Of a stretch of 24,247 nt of DNA, positions 3,027 to 20,338 are shown piece after piece (the first letter of the stretch is position 1; every line of letters starts with the position of its first letter). The DNA is taken from the IMG/VR virus record IMGVR_UViG_3300042450_000488, positions 1-24,247 of that record; one strand, written 5' to 3'. Origin of the DNA: a virus. The position numbers were made by a program, and so were the translations under genes. A model generated the notes under the pieces. That model worked only from the letters and a program-made list of their open reading frames with translations, had not been told where the DNA came from and ran no database searches.

Positions 3027-3452
3027 ATGCTATATTTTATAGTTATAGGCTTGACATTGCTATCATCATGGGCTATAATTAATTTAATAGCTAAAAGAAA
3101 AAGAAAAAAATATGCTCAGGTTTTATATAGACAAAGTGATCTACATAAAGTAATGAAAAGATTTTTTTCTTATCCTTTAGAAGATAAAGAAAAACCTCTT
3201 ACGCAATCAGAAAAGCGTAATAGTAAAGACAAGATTAATGTTTTAGTTATAGATGAAGAAGCTTATTGGGTTTCCGATAACACATTCTTTATTGCTAAAG
3301 CCGAAGATGGAGAGGTTATGTTGGAAACAGCAAAGCCTATTAATACCAAAGATATGTCTAAAAAAGATATTGATAAGATGTTGTTTATATTAGACAACTT
3401 ACAGGGAAGAGATGCAAATGATAGTGGTAGTTCAGGGAACGAACGATTTTGA
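3027..3452 (+). CDS. Hypothetical membrane-anchored protein
   Basis: 141 residues. I chose the ATG at 3027 because AAGGGG lies 4-5 nt upstream and the alternative start 51 nt earlier sits inside the previous gene. Residues 1-20 are one hydrophobic helix (IVIGLTLLSSWAIINLIA) followed by a strongly basic RKRKK cluster, giving an N-out, C-in anchor. The cytoplasmic remainder has a mixed alpha/beta look, with INVLVIDEEAYWV then FFIAKAEDGEV. Family not recognised. It overlaps the next gene by 35 bp. Confidence 0.65.
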   Translation: MLYFIVIGLTLLSSWAIINLIAKRKRKKYAQVLYRQSDLHKVMKRFFSYPLEDKEKPLTQSEKRNSKDKINVLVIDEEAYWVSDNTFFIAKAEDGEVMLETAKPINTKDMSKKDIDKMLFILDNLQGRDANDSGSSGNERF

Positions 3453-3768
3453 TGATTATCAAGTCTTTCTTCGTGCAATGAGCGTTGCCTTATCGAGCAT
3501 GAGAAAAGAAGATACAGACTTTACAATATACTCAGTTGGGCCAGCAAAGGTTCACGCATTTGTTTCTGAATTTTCTAATCTCTCAGAAAGAGGCATGAAG
3601 GCAAGAGGTCGTAAGATTAAATTTTACAAAGCTCCAACAAATTGGGTAGAAGAAAATATATCTTATGTAAACTATTTTGCATTCTTGAGTAATCCAAAGC
3701 AACCAACTTCAAAATTATTTGAGGTTGCAGAATTAAACAATGTCGAAGTGGGAATCTTTAGACACTAA
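3418..3768 (+). CDS. Hypothetical protein, Rossmann-like (possibly SLOG-type)
   Basis: 116 residues from ATG 3418 (AGGGA ten bases upstream); ATG 3412 would add two residues. It begins with a beta-strand and glycine loop, MIVVVQGTNDFDDY, then a helix, a second strand (DFTIYSVG) and an alternating pattern ending in NVEVGIF. This suits a small nucleotide-binding Rossmann-like fold such as the SLOG superfamily; similar short proteins occur in actinophages. No catalytic residue can be named. The assignment to SLOG is tentative. Confidence 0.6.
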   Translation: MIVVVQGTNDFDDYQVFLRAMSVALSSMRKEDTDFTIYSVGPAKVHAFVSEFSNLSERGMKARGRKIKFYKAPTNWVEENISYVNYFAFLSNPKQPTSKLFEVAELNNVEVGIFRH

Positions 3769-3779
3769 AGGGGAGCAGT

Positions 3780-3989
3780 ATGTTAGTACAAGATCTTAAA
3801 ATGATGGAAAAAATCGTTGCCAATAACCGTGAATTAAAATGGGAAGGCTGGGATGTTCTAGAACTTAAAAAAACAAACATTGCTAGAACAGATGTTAACG
3901 GTGTGAGAATTAATAACCAGTGGTACATAAAGACTGCTTTTGTTCCTAATCGTATGGGGTGGGAGATTCCAAGTAAGTACAAGGTGTAG
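3780..3989 (+). CDS. Hypothetical small protein
   Basis: 69 residues with a good Shine-Dalgarno (AGGGGAG, 5 nt before the ATG). Trp-rich: WEGWDVLEL, NNQWYIKTAF, MGWEIPSKY. The C-terminal NRMGWEIPSKY resembles endings of several small actinophage proteins of unknown role. Only 2 nt separate its stop from the WhiB start, so the two are likely one transcription unit. No function proposed. Confidence 0.6.
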   Translation: MLVQDLKMMEKIVANNRELKWEGWDVLELKKTNIARTDVNGVRINNQWYIKTAFVPNRMGWEIPSKYKV

Positions 3990-3991
3990 GC

Positions 3992-4273
3992 ATGAAGCAG
4001 CATTTATGGAAAGACGATGCTCCATGTCGTGATTTTAATACAAATTTATTTTTTGAAGAGTATGAAGATAATTTAAGTAATAGATTAAAGATTGATGGGA
4101 TCTGTACTGCATGCCCTATGGTTAAGCAATGCTTTGCTGTTGGCATTTCAGGTAAAGAATGGGGTGTCTGGGGTGGTGTATACTTAGAAAATGGAGAAAT
4201 TTCAAGAGAGTTCAACAATCATAAATCAAAAAGTGATTGGGCAGACATGTGGCAGAAAATGACAACGGATTAA
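3992..4273 (+). CDS. whiB: WhiB-family iron-sulphur transcription regulator
   Basis: 93 residues. All WhiB hallmarks are present: Cys12, then CTACPMVKQC with Cys38, Cys41 and Cys47 to hold a [4Fe-4S] cluster, and the GVWGG turn at 58-62 followed by a short polar C-terminus. WhiB proteins bind the principal sigma factor of actinobacteria and steer transcription; phage copies can override host WhiB regulators and affect septation or superinfection. The family is confined to actinobacteria and their phages, so it identifies the host phylum. A basic DNA-contacting tail is weak here (NNHKSKSD), so action may be mainly through sigma binding. Shine-Dalgarno AGGTGTAGG precedes the ATG. Confidence 0.9.
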   Translation: MKQHLWKDDAPCRDFNTNLFFEEYEDNLSNRLKIDGICTACPMVKQCFAVGISGKEWGVWGGVYLENGEISREFNNHKSKSDWADMWQKMTTD

Positions 4274-4276
4274 AAA

Positions 4277-4507
4277 ATGTATACAAATGAAATGCGAAGA
4301 GCTTTTCATCAAGTAACACCTCCAAAAGGATTTAAGGTGGACTTGATTGACAACGAACACTTCCTAACAATAAAGTTAGATGAAAGAAAGTTTGTTAATT
4401 TAGTTCATGATGAAAAGATTGCTGCATTACAATATGTAGTTCAATTAAAACACGCTCTAGAACTAGAGGGTGCAATTGTTTTAGTGACTAGGGAAGCCTT
4501 AAAATGA
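4277..4507 (+). CDS. Hypothetical small protein
   Basis: 76 residues, mixed strands then a long helix (DEKIAALQYVVQLKHALELEG) that could form a dimer interface. Three nt after the WhiB stop, no clear Shine-Dalgarno, and it overlaps the next gene by 4 bp (ATGA). I do not recognise the family; position suggests co-expression with WhiB. Confidence 0.6.
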   Translation: MYTNEMRRAFHQVTPPKGFKVDLIDNEHFLTIKLDERKFVNLVHDEKIAALQYVVQLKHALELEGAIVLVTREALK

Positions 4508-4920
4508 AAATTGCGATTGTTATACTAAGTATCTTGTCTATTTCTTTTGCTGTTGCTTATACTGCAACACTAAGTGCTTTGATAAAAGCAAATAATATAT
4601 TAACAAAAACTATCATTGATAAGTTTATCTTACAAGAATATATTGATACTGTTCAATCTGGTAAAGATATAAAGACCGATGAAGAAATTCATCAAGAAAG
4701 TTTTTTAAATTTTATTTCTGAGTCAAGAGATTGGGCATTTGAGTATATAGAAAATGTTCAGGCTGCTTTAAATAAGTTTGTTGCTGAAACCGATCCTTCT
4801 ATTGAGTATTTTGAAAAGTATGGAGATGTAGTTGCAGGTCCAAACAATGAAATTTTAAAAAAGATTTCTGTTTCATATAAAGAATTAAAGAATGTGTTAC
4901 CAAAGGATCAAGATGTTTAA
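4504..4920 (+). CDS. Hypothetical membrane-anchored protein
   Basis: 138 residues. The N-terminus is one hydrophobic segment (about residues 3-28, IAIVILSILSISFAVAYTAT) with no cleavage-site motif, so it is more likely an anchor than a signal peptide. The rest is hydrophilic and helical with many Glu and Lys, and could form a coiled coil (residues about 60-100). A spanin-like or membrane-associated structural role is conceivable given the lysis genes in the same transcript, but nothing specific shows it. Confidence 0.6.
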   Translation: MKIAIVILSILSISFAVAYTATLSALIKANNILTKTIIDKFILQEYIDTVQSGKDIKTDEEIHQESFLNFISESRDWAFEYIENVQAALNKFVAETDPSIEYFEKYGDVVAGPNNEILKKISVSYKELKNVLPKDQDV

Positions 4921-5077
4921 GCTAAAAGATCCAAGAAAACTAACTCTTTCTGCATTTCAAATTTGTGAAGAAGAAAAATGTAAAGAAGAATCTACTAAGA
5001 TTTGGACTAACAGTGAAATCAGAATACTAGATCTTTGTGATAAACATTATGATGAATTAGAATCGGAGAACTTTTAA
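4913..5077 (+). CDS. Small zinc-finger-like protein
   Basis: 54 residues. ATG 4913 is preferred over 4892 because AAGGA lies 5 nt upstream and the overlap with the previous gene becomes 8 bp. Cys18 and Cys23, with Cys42 and His45 in LCDKHYDE, look like one zinc site; the layout recalls the gene at 837 and the DUF7455 group, but with a C-x4-C first pair. Role unknown. Confidence 0.6.
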   Translation: MFKLKDPRKLTLSAFQICEEEKCKEESTKIWTNSEIRILDLCDKHYDELESENF

Positions 5078-5236
5078 ATGAAAGATGTTCTACTATCAAC
5101 ACTAACAGGTTTTGGATGCGGGATCGTGTTTGCTGCATTCAAATTGCCAGTACCAGCACCACCAGTTTTTGCGGGAGTCGCAGGAATTATTGGTCTTTGG
5201 ATTGGCTTCACAATACTAACACGAGTTATATCCTAG
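5078..5236 (+). CDS. XapX-domain (DUF1427) membrane protein
   Basis: 52 residues, ATG immediately after the previous stop. Two hydrophobic helices flank a KLPVPAPPVFAGVAGIIG core; the P-x-PAPP motif followed by a glycine-rich helix is the signature of the XapX / DUF1427 family of tiny bacterial membrane proteins. Function of the family is not known. Directly before a holin-like gene and in a transcript starting with a lysin, it may be an accessory membrane protein in lysis; that is inference. Confidence 0.75.
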   Translation: MKDVLLSTLTGFGCGIVFAAFKLPVPAPPVFAGVAGIIGLWIGFTILTRVIS

Positions 5237-5244
5237 GAGGAATA

Positions 5245-5517
5245 ATGAATACAACACAACTAAAGGCACTACTTGCCTCATACGGAAGATCAGTCCTGGC
5301 ATCAGGCCTTGCCCTATATATGGCAGGAGTAACAGATCCAAAGGATCTATGGACTGCTCTAGTAGCAGCACTTGCGCCAGTGGCAATCAGAGCAATTAAT
5401 CCAAACGACAAGGCTTTTGGTGTACTGCCAGATGCTAAGGCCGTAGAAGAGGCTTTAAAGGCTGCTAAGGCACCTGCAAAGCGAGTTGCTAAGAAGGCAG
5501 CAGCTCCAAAGAAGTAG
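5245..5517 (+). CDS. Holin-like small membrane protein with basic tail
   Basis: 90 residues from ATG 5245, which has the strongest Shine-Dalgarno in the region (AGGAGG, 4 nt upstream). Two apolar segments, SVLASGLALYMAGV (about 15-28) and LWTALVAALAPVAIRAI (about 33-49), are followed by NPNDKAFG and an Ala/Lys-rich tail (KAAKAPAKRVAKKAAAPKK). Size, two helices and charged C-terminus fit a phage holin, which times release of the lysin. A small structural membrane protein cannot be excluded. Last gene of the plus-strand block, followed by a terminator. Confidence 0.6.
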   Translation: MNTTQLKALLASYGRSVLASGLALYMAGVTDPKDLWTALVAALAPVAIRAINPNDKAFGVLPDAKAVEEALKAAKAPAKRVAKKAAAPKK

Positions 5518-5533
5518 TCTCTACTTACAGATC

Positions 5534-5562
5534 AGCCAGTCTAGAGATAGGCTGGCTTTTTT
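5534..5562 (+). terminator. Rho-independent terminator closing the plus-strand block
   Basis: AGCCAGTCT (5534-5542) and AGGCTGGCT (5549-5557) form a nine-pair RNA stem including one G-U pair, with a 6-nt loop, followed by six T (5557-5562). It lies 17 nt after the holin-like stop and two bases from the stop of the converging gene. Confidence 0.88.
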
Positions 5563-5563
5563 G

Positions 5564-6601
5564 TTACCCGTTTATTATTTCTAGGTATTTATCTTTAAGG
5601 TTTTCAACAGAGAAATGACTAAACCCTAAATTAATAGCCTGTTGTTTACTATCTATCTTATTAGAGTTCTTAACATAATCATCAATAAGACTAGCAAACT
5701 TATCAAGGTTTGGAGAATAAAGATCAACCATTGTTTTAGTTTTAAATGATCCTATTTTTTCTGAGGGGATAAGCCATTGACTTGGAAGAATAAGATTGTT
5801 AGGAGATATATCTGTCATAAATACAGGTAGTCCACTAATCAATGCTTCATTCATTGGCAAGCATAATCCAGCATACCTTCTTGGTAAAATCATAGCATCA
5901 TAACCAGAATAAAGATCTTCTCTGTTTTTAACGTTATCAGTATCAATAGTTATTCTTGAATCTTTAACTTTAATATTTAGATCTGTTTGTGTTTTAATTA
6001 CTAACTCAAAATCAGCTTTAGATTTTGTCATCATTTCTAGTACAGACTCTGTACCATTTCTATCTCTAGCAGCTTTCTTTCCACCAATGTGAAGAATTCT
6101 ATTATGAGTTTTAGATAAGTTATTTGATCTAGGATTATCAAAGATTGATGTAGTTGTTGGTGGCGGTAAATAAATAACTTTAGTCTTGTCCCCAAACATT
6201 TTTTGAACTACTTCAATATTCCATAAACTTGGTGATAGCAAAACATCTGGAAGTGTTATGCTTGAATTGTTTAGATGATCAAATAGTTCATAGTTATATT
6301 GTAATATTGTTTTGACATTATGCTTCTTAGCTAAGTCTACAAAGTTAAAACTGTAAAATGTTTCACAGCTTAACACTACATCAATGTCTTGTATGAACCG
6401 AGTGTACTCTTTCATTGTTGGCATTCCTGCAGAGGTTGTTCTGTAGTTGTATCCTTCATACCATTCTGGATGTTGTTGATTACCATTAAAGTGTGTTGAA
6501 TCAATTAGTAGTATCTTGTCTGGGTTAAGCATGTTAACAAGTTCTCTTGTTTGATTACCTAGTCCAGTGTTATCTGATCTTGCTATGATTCCTAGTCTCA
6601 T
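5564..6601 (-). CDS. GT-B fold glycosyltransferase (GT4-like)
   Basis: 345 residues. N-terminal acceptor domain begins RLGIIARSDNTGLGNQTRE, with the glycine loop typical of GT-B enzymes. The C-terminal donor domain starts near HIGGKKAARDRNG (171-183) and carries PRRYAGLCLPMNEALISG (240-257), where the Glu of NEALISG matches the nucleotide-sugar-binding Glu of GT4 enzymes. It should transfer a sugar from an NDP-sugar to a glycan or protein in the cytoplasm; donor and acceptor are unknown. Last gene of a five-gene operon, coupled to the upstream nucleotidyltransferase by a 4-bp ATGA overlap. Confidence 0.8.
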   Translation of the reverse strand: MRLGIIARSDNTGLGNQTRELVNMLNPDKILLIDSTHFNGNQQHPEWYEGYNYRTTSAGMPTMKEYTRFIQDIDVVLSCETFYSFNFVDLAKKHNVKTILQYNYELFDHLNNSSITLPDVLLSPSLWNIEVVQKMFGDKTKVIYLPPPTTTSIFDNPRSNNLSKTHNRILHIGGKKAARDRNGTESVLEMMTKSKADFELVIKTQTDLNIKVKDSRITIDTDNVKNREDLYSGYDAMILPRRYAGLCLPMNEALISGLPVFMTDISPNNLILPSQWLIPSEKIGSFKTKTMVDLYSPNLDKFASLIDDYVKNSNKIDSKQQAINLGFSHFSVENLKDKYLEIING

Positions 6602-7260
6602 GAGTCCATCTCTTTGTATAGTTGTTTTAATCCTTTTAGTGTTCCAATGTCCATATATTTTCCACCAGGATTTACGGATCTAATATCAAGATTCATGTCT
6701 ATCCAGTCTTGTATCTGTTTTCCTGGATGCTCTAATAGTGGATCGATGTATCTGATAAGATTTTTACGAAACAGCATTGTTCCCCACATGTCTGTATATT
6801 CACAATCAGAGACTTTATCTCTAGATGAAATAACTTTACCATTAGATACTAAGACCTGTCCAACTCTACCCTTAAGTTCTGGATCACAACTCCAAGTTCC
6901 AAGAACTAAGTCGCCAGCAGTATCCATCATTTCTTTATAGATATTAGTTTTACAGTCAAGAATATAAGTGTCTGGCATTCCAATTAAAACGGTATCGTTA
7001 TAGTTTCCAACCATAAACTTAACAGCATCAGACATAGTTGAAGGTTCACGAACAACTAACTTTATATCCATGTTCATGTTTTGAATAATAGGAACCCATT
7101 CAGCCCTTGTTGAAACTCTAACTTCATCACATACCTCAAGCATTTGATTAACATGCCATTGAAGTATAGATTCTTTTTCTGAAACTGGAAGGCAAAACTT
7201 TGGGATACCACCTATTCTAGATGCTTTCCCAGATGCTGGTAAGATTCCTATTGTAGCCAT
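6598..7260 (-). CDS. Sugar-1-phosphate nucleotidyltransferase
   Basis: 220 residues, GT-A-like NTP-transferase fold. GILPASGKASRIGGIPKFCLP (5-25) is the nucleotide-binding loop of the RfbA/GlmU type with the signature Gly-x-x-x-Arg and the Pro-Lys; MPDTY (95-99) supplies the metal-binding Asp; YMDIGTLKG near the C-terminus is typical of UTP- or dTTP-using members. It should make an NDP-sugar from NTP and sugar-1-phosphate, feeding the glycosyltransferases around it. Substrate cannot be told. Overlaps its neighbours by 4 bp (downstream) and 1 bp (upstream). Confidence 0.82.
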   Translation of the reverse strand: MATIGILPASGKASRIGGIPKFCLPVSEKESILQWHVNQMLEVCDEVRVSTRAEWVPIIQNMNMDIKLVVREPSTMSDAVKFMVGNYNDTVLIGMPDTYILDCKTNIYKEMMDTAGDLVLGTWSCDPELKGRVGQVLVSNGKVISSRDKVSDCEYTDMWGTMLFRKNLIRYIDPLLEHPGKQIQDWIDMNLDIRSVNPGGKYMDIGTLKGLKQLYKEMDS

Positions 7261-8048
7261 CAGTCTAAACCATATTGTTTCTTTAAGGTTGGTATGTCAT
7301 TTACGGGCCAGTAGTCTAAAGATTTTGTAGGATCATTAAAGGGATACTTATATTCTCCCCAACCTTCTCTTGTTCTATCCCCGCCCCATTTAGATTTAAA
7401 ATAACCGTGAACACCTTCAAACTTTACCTGTAGTCCATCTATGGTTGCGCCACCATCTACTTGACATGAAGCGTCAACTTCTGCTGTTGAAGCACTAATT
7501 CTCATTACATAACTTATTGGGGTATTAGAATGTACAAATTGACTACGCCAAGATACTACAAGATCTGATTCAGGATTAGTCATAGACTGCTCTTCAAGTA
7601 ATCTACACCTATGATCCCAATCACAGTCATCAAAATTATAGGGATAAAAGTTTTCATCAAAATATCCAATAGCTGAAACTAATTTTTTATTTATTCCACA
7701 AAGATGCCACCCGTGCTGTGTTCTAAACATTACACCCTTAAAATCATTGAGCATATCAATGATATGTGAGAAAGGTTTATTAAATAGCATTGAAGATGAA
7801 ACAACAAATGTCCAATCATGATTCTTTTTTAATGCTATGTTCCATGCTCTTGATAAACCAATATTTTCTGATTGATATTCTACCTGAAAACCATACTTTT
7901 TTTCAAATACTTCGCACTCTCTGTTACCGCTATTGTCTATCAACAAAACATTTTTATCTTGTATAGACTCCATACATTTATATACTCTTTCTGTTACTCT
8001 ATAAATAGGTATACAAATTAAATAATCAATCTCAGTATCTGTTTGCAT
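7260..8048 (-). CDS. GT2-family glycosyltransferase
   Basis: 262 residues from ATG 8048, preferred over a start 108 nt upstream because a GAGGGGGG tract lies 7-8 nt before it and the protein then begins just before the first strand (YLICIPIYRVTERV). LLIDNSGN (35-42) and ENIGLSRAWNIAL (61-73) are the donor-site blocks of GT2 enzymes, and FDDCDWDHRC (139-148) the acceptor-side Asp region. The usual metal-binding DxD is replaced by VVSSSMLF (82-89), so activity may be altered or metal-independent. It overlaps the FkbM gene stop by 17 bp. Closest in feel to rhamnosyltransferase-like proteins. Confidence 0.78.
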   Translation of the reverse strand: MQTDTEIDYLICIPIYRVTERVYKCMESIQDKNVLLIDNSGNRECEVFEKKYGFQVEYQSENIGLSRAWNIALKKNHDWTFVVSSSMLFNKPFSHIIDMLNDFKGVMFRTQHGWHLCGINKKLVSAIGYFDENFYPYNFDDCDWDHRCRLLEEQSMTNPESDLVVSWRSQFVHSNTPISYVMRISASTAEVDASCQVDGGATIDGLQVKFEGVHGYFKSKWGGDRTREGWGEYKYPFNDPTKSLDYWPVNDIPTLKKQYGLD

Positions 8049-8730
8049 AAATGTACCCCCCTCTTTCAGGACTACCCAAGATATCAATTCCAAATTGTTT
8101 TGAAAGCTTTTCAACCATTTGACCAAACTTTCCATCAAAAGATTTATCAAATTCAAGGACTAATATTTTTATTTTTGCTAAAGTTTTTGCGGGAGTATTT
8201 AGAATAAGATCAAACTCTGCACCCTCTATATCAATCTTCATAACATCAACCTCTTTAATCTTATAAGTTGAGAATAAATTTTCCATAGTTATTGCTAATA
8301 CTTCTGACTTATCATTTTTTTCTAGATCTACAATGCTGCTATTACCACCACGATTACTAATTGAAACCATTTTCTTTTCATGCCAGATAGCGTTATTAAT
8401 TACAGTAATATTTTCAGTAACATTATTTTTTATATTTTGATTAAGCAAGTGTAAATTGTTTGGCTCTGGCTCTACAGCATATATTTTAATTTTTTTATCA
8501 CCTTCTCTATTTTTATTAAAATTATCTACAAAGAGGCTAACTGCTCCAATATTTGCACCAATATCAACAAAAACTCCACCGTCAGTAAACTGATAATCGT
8601 GTATTCTGTATACATTTTCTATCCATGTTTCGTTAACTACCTTAAAATCAAGGTTGTGATCGAAGCTAGGATCTTCTGCGTTCTCTCTTATTTCAAAACT
8701 ATACTCTTCATGATTTAGAATAGATGTCAT
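8032..8730 (-). CDS. FkbM-family SAM-dependent methyltransferase
   Basis: 232 residues from ATG 8730, which gives a 4-bp ATGA overlap with the upstream gene; a start at 8760 would add ten residues but has no Shine-Dalgarno. VFVDIGANIGAVSLF (53-67) is the SAM-binding motif I, AVEPEP (85-90) the acidic motif II, and VDVMKIDIEGAEFDL (161-175) the family signature. FkbM enzymes O-methylate sugars or other hydroxyls. In this operon it probably caps or decorates a glycan made by the neighbouring transferases. Confidence 0.85.
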   Translation of the reverse strand: MTSILNHEEYSFEIRENAEDPSFDHNLDFKVVNETWIENVYRIHDYQFTDGGVFVDIGANIGAVSLFVDNFNKNREGDKKIKIYAVEPEPNNLHLLNQNIKNNVTENITVINNAIWHEKKMVSISNRGGNSSIVDLEKNDKSEVLAITMENLFSTYKIKEVDVMKIDIEGAEFDLILNTPAKTLAKIKILVLEFDKSFDGKFGQMVEKLSKQFGIDILGSPERGGYIYANRY

Positions 8731-9668
8731 AGACTTAACTCTTTTAATATTTGTTGCCATCTATTTTTATAAGTATAATTAGACTTAACTAATTCATGTC
8801 CTGCTTTTCTAATCTCTTCACGCTCTTCATCATGCTCTATGTAGTAATCAATTAATTCTTTTAGTTGTTCAAAGTTACCGTACTCGTAAAATACTAAATG
8901 TTTTTTGTCTTCAAACTCTCTTTCCATACCCTTTACGTATGGGTGAATCATAAAACCACCACGCCCTAAAGTTTCATAAACACGATCAGACCAATAATCT
9001 GGGTAATCAAAGTTTATACAAAGAGTGTCACCAACAACAACTTTTGTAGACCAGTAAAGTTTATTGAGTGTTAGTCCACGAATTGATGGTAATCCACCAC
9101 TTCCATACTGTTTAAAGTTGTTTTTGTAGTTATCCTCAAGCCAGTTAATAAGCTTAGGCCTATAGCTCCACTCTTGGTGATATTTTTTACTACCAACAAA
9201 TATAACTTGGTTGTCTAAGTTTGACTGCTTATAAATACATTCTTTATCATAAACTCCAGCAGGTACGTAATGACCAACTACACTTGTTTTTTCATTAAAC
9301 CATTCAGACATCTTGCTATCTACTGTGAAGAAATGCCCAATGTGTCTATATACTGGGTGAGTGTCTAGATCCTTTTGTCTTTGTAGTCCAAACCAAAGAT
9401 CAAGATGATAGGTCATTGTTGGGACATTATATTCTTTAAGTGTTAACAACACCTTGTCCATTTCAAACTTTCCAGGAGTCTTCCACCCGTGTGTATGAAT
9501 CCATATAAAAAGATCTGAGTCAACAGAAAGCTTTAATATGTCTTCGCTTTTAGCTTCTGTTTCCTGTAATCTTATGACTTTGTGCCCCAAAGATTCCAGG
9601 GTATTGGCATGATGACTCTCACTAGTATAGTCAACACGAAAGTTACCAAGAAAAACTATTTTTGACAT
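8727..9668 (-). CDS. CgeB-like GT-B glycosyltransferase
   Basis: 313 residues from ATG 9668, which has AGGG 5 nt upstream; a GTG at 9674 is the only longer choice. N-terminal Rossmann half starts KIVFLGNFRVDY; the C-terminal half has DYWSDRVYETLGRGGFMIHP (224-243) and then GMEREF...YGNFEQLKELIDYYI, the pattern of the CgeB / Glyco_trans_1_2 group. These are glycosyltransferases found in spore coats, surface glycans and many phages. First gene of the sugar operon, read from the minus-strand promoter at 9696-9704. Confidence 0.78.
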   Translation of the reverse strand: MSKIVFLGNFRVDYTSESHHANTLESLGHKVIRLQETEAKSEDILKLSVDSDLFIWIHTHGWKTPGKFEMDKVLLTLKEYNVPTMTYHLDLWFGLQRQKDLDTHPVYRHIGHFFTVDSKMSEWFNEKTSVVGHYVPAGVYDKECIYKQSNLDNQVIFVGSKKYHQEWSYRPKLINWLEDNYKNNFKQYGSGGLPSIRGLTLNKLYWSTKVVVGDTLCINFDYPDYWSDRVYETLGRGGFMIHPYVKGMEREFEDKKHLVFYEYGNFEQLKELIDYYIEHDEEREEIRKAGHELVKSNYTYKNRWQQILKELSL

Positions 9669-9695
9669 TGCCACCCTATCTTATTTGTTCTTAAT

Positions 9696-9704
9696 ATTAT
9701 ATCA
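9696..9704 (-). promoter_or_regulatory. Extended -10 promoter for the sugar operon
   Basis: On the minus strand TGATATAAT is a perfect extended -10. It gives a leader of about 20 nt with AGGG before the ATG at 9668. It is set back to back with the plus-strand promoter at 9714-9722; the two elements are only ten bases apart, so they probably compete or are controlled together. Confidence 0.7.
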
Positions 9705-9713
9705 TGCCTAATA

Positions 9714-9722
9714 TGTTATACT
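9714..9722 (+). promoter_or_regulatory. Extended -10 promoter for the Stealth-like gene
   Basis: TGTTATACT, an extended -10, 12 nt before the ATG at 9735, leaving a leader of only about five bases. No clear -35 is seen. Confidence 0.6.
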
Positions 9723-9734
9723 ATTATAAAAGGT

Positions 9735-10436
9735 ATGGGGAATATGAATTTTATATATATATGTCGTATTGGTGAAAATGAAGAGCTAAGGTATTCTATT
9801 AGGTCAGTGCTTAATAGCTTCCCAGAAGCCAGTATATGGGTTATAGGCGGTAAGCCAGACTGGTACGTTGGAAATTATATATATGTTGACCAAAATAATA
9901 GTAAATATCATAATGCCATGTCTAATCTTAATGCCCTATGTAATTCAGATTTAACCCCTGAAGAATTCTTTCTAATGAATGATGACTTCTTTATATTACA
10001 AAAGATAGATAAAATAGATACTCTTCATGGAGGTTTGTTGTCTGAAAAGATTAGTAGATATCAACAAATAGCAAGGTCTTCATCCTACATTAGAAAATTG
10101 TTCTCAACTAACGACAGACTAAAGAAAAATAACATACCAGATCCTTTAGACTATGAACTCCATGTTCCGATGCACATGGAAAAACAAAAGCTAAAGAAAA
10201 TTATAGATCAATACCCAGAACTTTTATGGAGATCTATGTACGGTAATACTTTTAGTGTTGGTGGAATTGAATACCAAGACGTAAAGGTATACGGCAGCCA
10301 TGTTATTAGATCTGAAAGAAAGGGAATAGACTATGCTAAAGATATATTTTTATCTACAGATGACATTTCTTTTAAAAAGATAGTGTTGCCAGAATTTCAA
10401 AGTATGTTTAGTGCTAAAAGCACTTTAGAGAAATAA
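9735..10436 (+). CDS. Stealth-like sugar-phosphate transferase / GT-A-like protein
   Basis: 233 residues (ATG 9744 is a possible alternative start). RYSIRSVLNSFPEASIWVIGG (19-39) and EEFFLMNDDFFILQ (76-89) match conserved regions of Stealth proteins, which transfer hexose-1-phosphate in capsule synthesis and share a fold with GT-A glycosyltransferases; the NDD acidic motif is intact. The C-terminal Stealth regions are not obvious, so this is a shortened relative. Sole plus-strand gene in the area, divergent from the five-gene sugar operon and probably part of the same pathway. Confidence 0.6.
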   Translation: MGNMNFIYICRIGENEELRYSIRSVLNSFPEASIWVIGGKPDWYVGNYIYVDQNNSKYHNAMSNLNALCNSDLTPEEFFLMNDDFFILQKIDKIDTLHGGLLSEKISRYQQIARSSSYIRKLFSTNDRLKKNNIPDPLDYELHVPMHMEKQKLKKIIDQYPELLWRSMYGNTFSVGGIEYQDVKVYGSHVIRSERKGIDYAKDIFLSTDDISFKKIVLPEFQSMFSAKSTLEK

Positions 10437-10599: not shown

Positions 10600-10780
10600 C
10601 TATAACTTGAGCCTCTACTAGCTTATCGTAGATGTTAGACATCATAAAACCAAGACTCATTTGACTTTGTGCTATGCTTTCATTAGCCTTTTCTTCGCTC
10701 ATACCGTTGTCTAAACAGAATTGTTTATTGTCTGTATTGATTGATTCCATCATAATTGCTACTGCATCTTCTTTGTTCAT
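10592..10780 (-). CDS. Hypothetical small helical protein, leaderless
   Basis: 62 residues, Met-rich and helical (EDAVAIMMESINTD, EEKANESIAQSQMSLGFMMS). No Shine-Dalgarno; it is read from a complete promoter whose -10 ends six bases before the ATG. Function unknown. Confidence 0.6.
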   Translation of the reverse strand: MNKEDAVAIMMESINTDNKQFCLDNGMSEEKANESIAQSQMSLGFMMSNIYDKLVEAQVIVV

Positions 10781-10816: not shown

Positions 10817-10835
10817 ACCCATTGGCTTAACTTAG

Positions 10836-10906
10836 AGCGAGTGACCAGAATCGAACTGGCACTACCAACTTGGAAGGATGGTGCACTACCATTATGCAAC
10901 ACTCGC
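10836..10906 (-). tRNA. tRNA-Gly (anticodon UCC)
   Basis: 71-nt cloverleaf on the minus strand: acceptor GCGAGTG/CACTCGC, anticodon loop CTTCCAA, T loop TTCGATT with a G-U pair in the T stem. One T-T mismatch sits in the anticodon stem. No CCA is encoded. Reads GGA, a frequent Gly codon in this window. Confidence 0.9.
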
Positions 10907-10910
10907 TTAG

Positions 10911-10983
10911 CTGGGGATGCTGGATTCGAACCAGCGACCTAGAAGTTAACAGCTTCCCGCTCTGCCTGCTGAGCTAATCCCCA
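10911..10983 (-). tRNA. tRNA-Asn (anticodon GUU)
   Basis: 73-nt cloverleaf: acceptor TGGGGAT/ATCCCCA, D arm GCTC/GAGC, anticodon loop CTGTTAA, T arm GCTGG/CCAGC. No encoded CCA. Four bases separate it from the Gly tRNA. Confidence 0.93.
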
Positions 10984-10987
10984 TTCG

Positions 10988-11061
10988 TACACCAGATAGG
11001 ACTTGAACCTATGATAGCCGAATTATGAGTTCGGTGCCTTAACCAACTTGGCTACTGGTGC
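10988..11061 (-). tRNA. tRNA with CAU anticodon (elongator Met or Ile2)
   Basis: 74-nt cloverleaf: acceptor GCACCAG/CTGGTGT, anticodon stem CCGAA/TTCGG, loop CTCATAA, T arm ATAGG/CCTAT. It lacks the three G-C pairs of an initiator stem, so it is not fMet. Whether it is Met or an Ile tRNA with lysidine cannot be told by eye. Confidence 0.9.
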
Positions 11062-11066
11062 CTATG

Positions 11067-11139
11067 TCCCCCTGGCAGGAATCGAACCTGCGACACATGG
11101 CTTAGAAGTCCATTGTTCTATCCACTGAACTACAGAGGG
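11067..11139 (-). tRNA. tRNA-Arg (anticodon UCU)
   Basis: 73-nt cloverleaf: acceptor CCCTCTG/CAGGGGG (one G-U pair), D arm GTTC/GAAC, anticodon loop CTTCTAA, T arm GCAGG/CCTGC. One A-G mismatch at the loop end of the anticodon stem. Reads AGA, a common Arg codon in this AT-rich phage and probably rarer in its host. Its 5' end overlaps the stop of the small gene at 11130. Confidence 0.9.
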
Positions 11140-11966: not shown

Positions 11967-12136
11967 TAAACTTCTTTCTTAATAATTGGTTCTAACCTAT
12001 CCCAATAACCATCTTTATTACCAGTATACACCTGTCCTGTTTCACGGTCAACTAACATCCACTTTGTAGGTGAAAGAGTATGTACTTGTAAATCTACAGG
12101 CTCATCCAATTCTTCAAACTCAAAACTATTACGCAT
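11966..12136 (-). CDS. Hypothetical small acidic protein
   Basis: 56 residues. N-terminus acidic (FEFEELDEPVDL), then a strand-rich part with WMLVDRETGQVYTGNKDGYW. Both ends overlap neighbouring genes by one base (TAATG), strong support for translation. No family recognised. Confidence 0.6.
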   Translation of the reverse strand: MRNSFEFEELDEPVDLQVHTLSPTKWMLVDRETGQVYTGNKDGYWDRLEPIIKKEV

Positions 12137-12498
12137 TAATCAGGCATGTCCCATTCTTGTGGAATAAGGGCAGGATCTAAAGTTTTAATCCCAAATTTTT
12201 CATATGCTGCACGAGCTGAAGCATTGTTTTCTATAGCAAGTGTAGTTACAAATCCAAATTCTTGTGCAACCTGTCCTTTAAACTTATGAGAATCTTGATA
12301 GTTACCAGGATTCATAACAAGCCTATCATATTTAATGCTAGCGTTATGTAGTTGAGCAACAGTTTTAATTCTTTCAGAACTGTTTCTGCCAGTTACGATA
12401 ACCTTGGTATCATAAATACTATTTACATAATCAATGACGTGCTGTATAGGAGTACCGTCCCTTTTTAAAAGGGTATCATCAATATCTATAATTATCAA
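12136..12498 (-). CDS. HAD-superfamily phosphatase (polynucleotide kinase 3'-phosphatase-like)
   Basis: About 120 residues from TTG 12498, which has GGAG 6 nt upstream and a TTGA overlap with the previous stop; TTG 12510 is an alternative. IIIDIDDTLL is HAD motif I (both Asp present), KVIVTGRN is motif II, the Lys of DSHKFKGQVAQE is motif III and TLAIENNASA motif IV, weakly acidic. The layout recalls the phosphatase half of T4-type polynucleotide kinase, which removes 3'-phosphates during RNA or DNA repair; no kinase domain is present. A generic nucleotidase is the alternative. Confidence 0.72.
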   Translation of the reverse strand: MIIIDIDDTLLKRDGTPIQHVIDYVNSIYDTKVIVTGRNSSERIKTVAQLHNASIKYDRLVMNPGNYQDSHKFKGQVAQEFGFVTTLAIENNASARAAYEKFGIKTLDPALIPQEWDMPD

Positions 12499-12701
12499 CC
12501 TTTTCTCCAATGCATAAATGATTTAACATATACAATACCATAAGCAATAGCAGCAACGATAAACCCATATTGGTCTGTAGCAATGGCATAAGCAATCCAT
12601 AAGCATTCATTAACACATAGTACCAACCAACCCCAGATAGTCTTTCTACCGACCAGGAAGATGCCTGTAACGCCTATTGCTGCTAATACCCATGACCACA
12701 T
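12495..12701 (-). CDS. Small membrane protein, PnuC-like half
   Basis: 68 residues with three likely helices (WVLAAIGVTGIFLVG, GWLVLCVNECLWIAYAIA, FIVAAIAYGIVYV). The Trp- and Gly-rich spacing (GRKTIWGWL, LWIAYAIATDQYGF) recalls one half of PnuC nicotinamide riboside/mononucleotide transporters; such short versions are seen in phages. If it forms dimers it could import an NAD precursor, but this is guesswork. Overlaps both neighbours (1 and 4 bp). Confidence 0.6.
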   Translation of the reverse strand: MWSWVLAAIGVTGIFLVGRKTIWGWLVLCVNECLWIAYAIATDQYGFIVAAIAYGIVYVKSFMHWRKG

Positions 12702-13458: not shown

Positions 13459-14235
13459 CTAGGCATTAGGATTAATTAGAGATTTTTTACCAGCAATAAG
13501 ATCTTCAATAAGAGCACATACTACAGCATACTCTTCTTCAAAGATTTTTTGTGATCTACCAGCACCAACGCCAATAATCTTTCCTTCTTTTTCTGCTGCC
13601 TCTTTAACGCCTTTTTCTGAATCATAATTCAATACTGTACATTGGAACCATTTTGCAATATATCCATCTTTATCAATAATATATTTTTCAAAGTTTCCAC
13701 CTTGCTCAGATCCACCAGTATCCATGTTTAACCAGTGTGAGTAGTATTCTTTTTTATTTACAATTCCTAATTCTTTTTCTTTAGCTGCCATCGTAATCAT
13801 TTGATCTGAAACTTCTTTGTAAAGATCATGAGTTTCTTTTCTTGGTTGACCCAATCCATTTACTGTTGCATCTCCGTTGTGAGGACTAATTTCATTAACA
13901 GAAATATTTGGATTTGATGCTACCATCTCTGAAAATTGAAAAGTAGTTCCATAAACATCTCTACCATATTCCTGTGAGTCTAAACCACAAGTGATACCCT
14001 GTGACCACTTACCATGAGTAATTCCTGGACCGCAGTAGTCGTTAGTAGGAATGGCAATAACTTGGAAGTCATCTCCGCCATACTTATCTTGAAGCCACTG
14101 TAGGATTTCCATCTGGTTAGCGTTACCGCAACCAACTGTAGTGTTTACTAATAGACCAACCTTGCCTTTAAATTGATCTAAGAAATTTGGGGCTTCATCA
14201 GCCGAGTTAAGCGGGATATCGTAAATTGATTTCAT
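13459..14235 (-). CDS. Glutathione-peroxidase-like thiol peroxidase
   Basis: 258 residues, longer than usual GPx proteins (about 160-200). It starts like the family (SIYDIPLNSADEAPNFLDQF), then GKVGLLVNTTVGCGNANQME, where Cys36 stands at the peroxidatic position of the NxxxxCG motif; QWLQDKYGGDDFQVIAIP follows, and FEKYIIDKDGYIAKWF (182-197) is the closing motif. The enzyme should reduce hydroperoxides with thioredoxin or a low-molecular-weight thiol. A roughly 50-residue insertion (about 120-170) departs from ordinary GPx. Stand-alone gene, leaderless, converging with nothing; a virus-borne stress gene. Confidence 0.75.
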   Translation of the reverse strand: MKSIYDIPLNSADEAPNFLDQFKGKVGLLVNTTVGCGNANQMEILQWLQDKYGGDDFQVIAIPTNDYCGPGITHGKWSQGITCGLDSQEYGRDVYGTTFQFSEMVASNPNISVNEISPHNGDATVNGLGQPRKETHDLYKEVSDQMITMAAKEKELGIVNKKEYYSHWLNMDTGGSEQGGNFEKYIIDKDGYIAKWFQCTVLNYDSEKGVKEAAEKEGKIIGVGAGRSQKIFEEEYAVVCALIEDLIAGKKSLINPNA

Positions 14236-14991: not shown

Positions 14992-15669
14992 CTATTTATG
15001 CGGGGAAGTCAAGAGATACTTACTTCTAAGTTCTAGCCAAGTATTAAGATCATGAGGATAGTCAAAGTCTTCAGTCCAATCATTTATATTTATATAAGCA
15101 AACCTATGCTCAGGTACAAATATGTCTCTTGTTTTCTTAACACCTAGTAGGTATCGCAATAGGGTCCATCCTGCTGGTAGTGGAGTATCTTGAACAACAC
15201 GCCTAAATATAATATTTTTTAAAGTTTGTAGCATTACCTTATTAAAGTAACCAGCAAAGGAGAAAGCAAAAATCTCTCCCCAAGGCTTTCCAGTTATCTC
15301 AGACTTCTTGTCACGTAGGAAAAAGCACCATTTTCTGTTATTGGTAGCAATTATTTCCACTGCCTCATCTGTAAAATAGACATCACCATAGACAATTATA
15401 GTCCTATCATCAGACCATTGTTCATGAGAAGAAAGAAACTTGTCCATGTCCTTATGCTTTTTACTTTTTTTAGCAATGTAGGATGAAGTTCCAGGTATAT
15501 CAGGTAAGCCACCATCAGATACTATAACAATATCATCTGTATATTTAAGGAATTGCCTTACAGTTCTTTCAACTAAGACTTCACCTTCAATAACAACCAT
15601 ATGCTTGGTAACATTTTTATTATTATTCCATCTTGAGCCTTCACCAGCACATAAGATTAACACTCTCAT
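14992..15669 (-). CDS. NTP-transferase-like sugar nucleotidyltransferase
   Basis: 225 residues, GT-A-like fold. VLILCAGEGSRW (3-14) is the nucleotide-binding loop with Gly-x-Gly-x-Arg; KHMVVIEGEVLVERTVRQF follows as in the MobA/RfbA group; VYGDVYFTDEA (93-103) carries the metal-binding Asp. The C-terminus (NINDWTEDFDYPHDLNTW) matches the 'D-x-D-x-P-x-D' closing of such proteins. It may make or transfer an activated sugar for the 5.5-10.4 kb glycan genes, though it is separated from them by 4.5 kb. Third gene of a leaderless operon starting at 15932; no Shine-Dalgarno. Confidence 0.72.
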   Translation of the reverse strand: MRVLILCAGEGSRWNNNKNVTKHMVVIEGEVLVERTVRQFLKYTDDIVIVSDGGLPDIPGTSSYIAKKSKKHKDMDKFLSSHEQWSDDRTIIVYGDVYFTDEAVEIIATNNRKWCFFLRDKKSEITGKPWGEIFAFSFAGYFNKVMLQTLKNIIFRRVVQDTPLPAGWTLLRYLLGVKKTRDIFVPEHRFAYININDWTEDFDYPHDLNTWLELRSKYLLTSPHK

Positions 15670-20218: not shown

Positions 20219-20264
20219 AAGGTTTGTAAGAAAATGTTATAAAAATATCAATCCCGGGCTCTTG

Positions 20265-20338
20265 CGATCTGTATCGGACTTGAACCGACGACCTCTACCG
20301 TGACAGGGTAGCGCTCTAACCAACTGAGCTAACAGACC
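20265..20338 (-). tRNA. tRNA-Asp (anticodon GUC)
   Basis: 74-nt cloverleaf: acceptor GGTCTGT/ACAGATC, D arm GCTC/GAGC, anticodon stem CTACC/GGTAG with loop CTGTCAC, T arm GTCGG/CCGAT. No CCA encoded. It follows the DUF932 gene and probably shares its transcript. Confidence 0.93.

Follow-up and report, generated by a model that had tools for sequence, protein, structure and literature searches.

What a block of sugar-modifying genes makes during infection, and onto which molecule, is the question raised by positions 5,564 to 10,436 of the IMG/VR virus record IMGVR_UViG_3300042450_000488, a linear fragment of 24,247 bases that was analysed whole and is referred to here as the window. The original prediction described a divergent pathway that would activate a sugar, build a short glycan and cap it by methylation, with either virion proteins or the host surface as the target. 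The reading favoured here, at a probability of roughly 0.6, is that the block is a modular virion-glycosylation locus of a freshwater actinophage, subject to cassette switching; a fixed pair of glycosyltransferases (GTs), termed GT1b and GT1a, would bracket exchangeable enzymes that make or alter a variable sugar. The window is related to metagenome contigs, the longest of about 112 kb. Their records name no habitat, and a freshwater origin is suggested by the likeness of the virus to published freshwater actinophages.

All six predicted genes, the five of the block and a divergent neighbour, were recovered, and their tight coupling within the block is real: neighbours overlap by 1–34 bp, and 421 of 441 block junctions overlap in relatives. 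Read along the minus strand from 9668 to 5564, the order is GT1b, an FkbM methyltransferase, a GT2-like GT, a nucleotidyltransferase (NTase1) and GT1a, each gene overlapping the next. GT1b (8727–9668) is a GT-B glycosyltransferase (PF13524, 3.6e-24; phrog_28745, 1.8e-38), with a likely start at ATG 9668 inside an open reading frame that opens at GTG 9674; relatives begin at the equivalent methionine. The FkbM-family S-adenosylmethionine-dependent methyltransferase (8032–8760) lies well above the curated cutoffs for PF05050 (2.3e-18; 67.3 versus 22.7 bits) and TIGR01444 (6e-24; 85.1 versus 37.7 bits). The GT2-like enzyme (7260–8048), of the GT-A class (PF00535, 1e-3; phrog_29879, 8e-9), has had its start moved from TTG 8156 to ATG 8048, as the family alignment (A6) supports. 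NTase1 (6598–7260) is a putative RmlA-like sugar-1-phosphate nucleotidylyltransferase. Its loop LPASGKASR-x-GGIPK, of the nucleotide-binding G-x-x-S-R...PK type, is conserved in 14 relatives, as is GMPDTYI, and Foldseek matches its model best to RmlA (E 2.6e-8, probability 1.0), the model having a predicted local distance difference test (pLDDT) score of 52; there is no Pfam match, and NCBIfam gives a weak, partial match to MobA. GT1a (5564–6601), a second GT-B enzyme, falls just below the curated cutoff of PF13692 (2.5e-5), matches phrog_2170 (1.7e-12) and has an invariant PRRYAGLCLPMNEAL motif in its family alignment (A1).

The Pfam cutoffs are thus passed by FkbM and GT1b; GT1a and GT2 are weaker but match phage glycosyltransferase PHROGs. 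Sequence searches of the PDB with both nucleotidyltransferases of the window, GT1a and GT1b returned nothing useful, and tblastn searches of GenBank phages with GT1a, NTase1, FkbM and a GT47-like protein from the interior of other blocks gave no match. An NTase1 homologue (78–79% identical) occurs in another phage group, on two contigs that show neither GT1a nor GT1b over the fetched length. That the block enzymes build a glycan is nearly certain. Families and folds uphold a pathway of the kind predicted, with activation, transfer and methylation; the more specific step of capping by methylation is plausible and unproven.

The unifying feature of the locus lies in its outer genes. GT1a and GT1b profiles were run on all fetched loci, and a pair was counted when both genes lay within 15 kb; the counts are of the matches listed, hence lower bounds, and include overlapping records that are not independent samples. 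At least 142 loci, forming at least 104 distinct blocks, carry both genes on one strand, with GT1b always first and GT1a always last. Among listed loci whose relevant side extends for 8 kb or more, every GT1a is accompanied by GT1b (79 of 79) and every GT1b by GT1a (87 of 87). Obligate co-occurrence and fixed order show the two to be a fixed pair of GTs, both predicted to be soluble. The genes between them, in the blocks listed, belong to 20 families arranged in 23 ways. Most of the scanned families are sugar enzymes, namely PIG-L deacetylases, a GT47/exostosin-like enzyme, other GTs, class I and FkbM methyltransferases and NAD-dependent sugar epimerases (PF01370, down to 2e-60). Two blocks also hold odd interior genes (L140, 8498–9082; L247, 10912–11436), namely a JmjC/cupin-like protein and a protein without family match. 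None of the 545 block proteins has a convincing transmembrane segment; six values, all from the GT1b and FkbM families, lie marginally above 1.6. Membrane-embedded flippases, membrane GTs and lipid-carrier transferases are likewise absent from the proteins of the 104 blocks.

Exchange of the interior can be followed directly in the window, which is a clean recombinant of two lineages. Against its nearest lineage, represented by L027, a 56-kb contig otherwise mostly 94–99% identical to it, identity is 86–99% over 3400–6601, drops to 42–65% from 6602 to about 9670 and then returns to 88–99%, apart from one bin near 10600. Against L010, a contig of 105 kb, the pattern is reversed: the left flank is mostly 65–84% identical where it can be aligned, the stretch 6602–9670 reaches 78–96%, and the next kilobase has little or no homology. 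Interior and GT1b have therefore been replaced as a unit (6602–9674), with the left breakpoint at the start codon of GT1a and the right one at the start of GT1b. The breakpoint falls on the same base in three further contigs (L028, L125 and L126), and four others (L002, L005, L006 and L008) share the window's arrangement. Both arrangements recur in several independent contigs from different metagenomes that span the junctions, which led to the rejection of an assembly chimera as the cause.

On a wider scale, the two major interior types, A and B, switch five times among the 73 rows of a quick tree of flanking genes, and accessory genes come and go among close relatives. Strict independence of interior type from phylogeny was not found in this tree; the type is mostly inherited. 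Differing genes thus occupy the same site between conserved flanks, as in a hypervariable (metaviromic) island, and the predicted cargo module does behave as an exchangeable unit. The obligate frame, its interchangeable interior and the recombination breakpoints formed no part of the original prediction and are new here.

If the block is a virion-glycosylation locus, its mode of action may be pictured as follows. In the window, NTase1 would activate a sugar, the GT2-like enzyme would add it and FkbM would methylate it; other phages would, by homology, substitute epimerases, PIG-L deacetylases, other methyltransferases or a GT47-like transferase. With no membrane proteins in it, the pathway probably runs in the cytoplasm of the infected cell. 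It would O-glycosylate virion proteins, with capsid or tail subunits the likeliest acceptors, as in Che8-type mycobacteriophages. Recombination in or beside the frame genes, as seen in the window, would swap interiors between phage lineages, so that related phages may carry different glycan types.

The link to Che8 comes from prophages. A scan of bacterial genomes with the GT1a profile yielded two loci only, both on Nocardia contigs that also carry phage genes (L271 and L272), and few host genomes contain GT1b (1 of 399 and 2 of 396, one being the query genome itself). L272 carries, in this order, genes for the major tail protein, GT1b, FkbM, GT1a and a phrog_854 transferase. The tail gene is well assigned (phrog_792, 3e-94; DNA 64–68% identical to that of annotated major tail genes), identity to the window is 56% for GT1b, 43% for FkbM and 34% for GT1a, and the phrog_854 transferase is 47% identical to Che8 gp110. 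L271 has the alternative interior type, a single fused protein of GT47-like and GT-A parts between GT1b and GT1a, again followed by a gp110 homologue; the Nocardia loci thus show the frame with two alternative interiors. A third case, L269, a virus contig of 66% G+C that is probably derived from an isolate, combines GT1b, FkbM, GT1a and a gp110 homologue near a terminase-like gene. In the account of PMC12363180, citing Freeman et al. 2023, Che8 gp110 and Corndog gp38 are essential for capsid glycosylation. The soluble pathway, the lack of a detected DNA-hydroxylating enzyme and this link to a gp110-type capsid GT together favour the virion as the probable target. Of the two targets originally named, virion proteins are accordingly the better supported, by soluble enzymes and by prophage homologues linked to gp110; the host surface is less so.

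Several observations weigh against this. Although GTs of recognised fold, as in the Che8 type, are present, the gp110 family (phrog_854), found in L269, L271 and L272, was not detected in 16 large freshwater relatives, so the enzyme that would attach the first sugar to protein is not assigned in those phages. The termini of the capsid and tail-tube proteins of two relatives (G002 and G014) were read for an acceptor, and no clear site was seen. The freshwater block adjoins lysis-side genes on the opposite strand, outside the head and tail operon. The sequence matches of GT1a, NTase1 and GT2 are weak, and structure prediction gave a low-confidence model for NTase1. GT2 has no DxD motif at the usual place, where all 15 aligned relatives have SSSM; with its downstream FDE...DCD motif retained, it is possibly a metal-independent or altered transferase.

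Because phrog_854 and an acceptor were not found, and because the block lies outside the structural operon in the freshwater phages, the main rival is modification of the host surface by cytosolic enzymes. The pathway would then alter wall teichoic acid or polysaccharide precursors during infection, so as to block superinfection or keep progeny from adsorbing to debris. No flippase is needed for soluble GTs in the cytosol to glycosylate wall precursors. The fold of the divergent neighbour, akin to a capsule phosphotransferase, would fit, and this is the usual interpretation of phage GTs in variable islands, such as the pelagimyophage HRC (PMC7029224) and phages E7 and F5 of Nanopelagicales (PMC10202952). 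The missing flippase, membrane GTs and lipid-carrier transferase speak against it, although a strictly cytosolic modification of wall precursors is compatible with their absence; serotype conversion of the Gtr type does not fit a block without transmembrane segments. In addition, the prophage versions accompany a capsid-glycosylation GT among the late structural genes, and are not in the position typical of lysogenic conversion. On balance, this explanation is unlikely, while being the best placed of the alternatives.

Considerably less probable is a general auxiliary locus that lacks a single structural target and either produces free or lipid-linked glycoconjugates or diverts host sugar nucleotides, its variation being due to neutral exchange of passengers at a hotspot beside the transfer RNA (tRNA) array. 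The block does lie between a terminator and that array, a plausible recombination hotspot, and the interior type switches seldom, being mostly inherited; but neutral passengers would not be expected to keep GT1b and GT1a obligately while interiors change, or to have breakpoints at gene boundaries. Least probable of all is glycosylation of phage DNA to evade restriction, as by T4 and other virus-encoded GTs: it is one role proposed for the GTs of Nanopelagicales phages (PMC10202952), and viral GTs are able to add a range of glycans to DNA as hypermodifications (Pyle et al. 2024, as cited in PMC12619734), but none of 14 large, possibly incomplete relatives has PF00303 (thymidylate synthase/hydroxymethylase) or TET/JBP above cutoff, in a search confined to these base-modifying families, and an enzyme set that combines FkbM, epimerase and PIG-L with several GTs, and is linked to a capsid GT, fits protein or polysaccharide glycans better. 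Weak TET/JBP matches below cutoff occur in two large relatives (G027 and G023), and may be general 2-oxoglutarate oxygenases.

The proposed virion-glycosylation locus may be compared with several known systems. Like virion glycosylation in Che8, Corndog and Myrna, as presented in PMC12363180, PMC12619734 and PMC11256854 after Freeman et al. 2023, it pairs soluble phage GTs with a methyltransferase, either attached or linked (in Che8, gp108 fuses GT2 and methyltransferase), and relatives of its frame genes stand in direct linkage with a gp110 homologue. It differs in its dedicated nucleotidyltransferase and interchangeable interior, and in that no member of the gp110 family was detected in the freshwater relatives searched; profile comparison of the GT1a, GT1b, NTase1, GT2 and Stealth families detected no homology to Che8 gp108–110. 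With the host-recognition or metaviromic islands of abundant aquatic phages (PMC7029224, PMC7468147, PMC10202952) it shares a hypervariable GT region, but those islands are large, loosely ordered and often accompanied by tail fibres, whereas here there is a fixed two-gene frame with gene-precise breakpoints. Bacterial O-antigen and capsule serotype loci likewise have conserved flanking genes around exchangeable genes for sugar synthesis and transfer; the phage block, in contrast, has 2–8 soluble genes and no polymerase, flippase or initiating membrane transferase. It is tempting to regard it as a phage ‘serotype locus’, an idea to which we would give slightly under even odds. Sugar-making genes around a constant GT pair would be swapped by homologous recombination across lineages, and near-identical virions would bear different surface glycans and so be bound or neutralised by different partners. 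Freshwater actinophages and Nocardia prophages do share the frame and its two alternative interiors.

A second nucleotidyltransferase, NTase2 (14992–15669, minus strand; PF12804, 3e-6; phrog_33187, 2e-31), lies apart from the block and had been associated with it. This association holds up: NTase2 homologues adjoin GT1b homologues in nine Streptomyces phages, which ties NTase2 to the pathway, and the block of L258 contains a nucleotidyltransferase resembling it. Judged from these homologues, NTase2 likely supplies the block pathway, though unlinked in the window. In the Streptomyces phages Dryad, Yara, Wentworth and their kin, homologues of GT1b (27% identity; hhalign 99.8%) and NTase2 (31%) stand next to an FkbM-like methyltransferase, after endolysin and tail genes. 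This cassette differs in having three genes only, with no GT1a, GT2 or NTase1 found; it is annotated, and no functional study of it was found in the literature.

The divergent neighbour (9735–10436, plus strand) was rightly recognised as Stealth-like. Its confident model (pLDDT 89.7) is closest to M. tuberculosis CpsY (2.9e-9) and GNPTAB, with which it shares the predicted fold and NDD motif, but the protein has only about 230 amino acids, scores below the PF11380 cutoff (20.2 versus 39.4 bits) and belongs to a family (phrog_7999, 2e-49) common in actinophages away from glycan genes. Fifty actinophage records contain homologues; three of these contexts were read, and there the gene adjoins rIIAB, WhiB or terminase genes, with no GTs. 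The family (also L103–L105) is spread over phages of Mycobacterium, Gordonia, Microbacterium and Streptomyces, and is annotated as hypothetical in the records listed. Among window relatives, the gene is found to one side of the block, to the other or not at all, and it is absent from most window-type blocks. Its membership of the pathway was therefore rejected; it is probably an independent, widespread actinophage gene.

The surroundings of the block are those of a phage with an actinobacterial host, as indicated by a WhiB gene (3992–4273; PF02467, 1e-10). A plus-strand intrinsic terminator (5534–5557), with a 10-bp stem and a T-run, ends the rightward gene run before the block; its fold (−20.5 kcal/mol, z −4.1; 0 of 200 shuffles equally good) bears out the predicted separation. 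Placement directly beyond the lysis genes was too loosely put: the CHAP endolysin fragment (1–441) is about 5 kb away, and the adjoining gene (5245–5517) has no family match. Beside the variable block lies the array of tRNA genes (Gly, Asn, Met and Arg; 10835–11139), with a tRNA-Asp at 20264–20338. Further right are a HAD-like phosphatase (12136–12510), a PnuC-like short membrane protein (12495–12701) and a glutathione-peroxidase-like protein (13459–14235), a redox and NAD-related cargo. A promoter scan of the window was uninformative (28 found, 28.3 expected).

To our knowledge, phage virion glycosylation has been shown only in a few mycobacteriophages, and we know of no natural role for it outside animals. 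The present results suggest that it is widespread in abundant freshwater actinophages, modular, and able to switch type by cassette exchange. What is new is a constant frame with a swappable interior, for which exchange can be demonstrated, linked to a validated family of capsid glycosyltransferases. The GT1b/GT1a pair provides a marker for finding such loci, and selection on virion glycan variation, through host range, decoys or virion predators, becomes testable.

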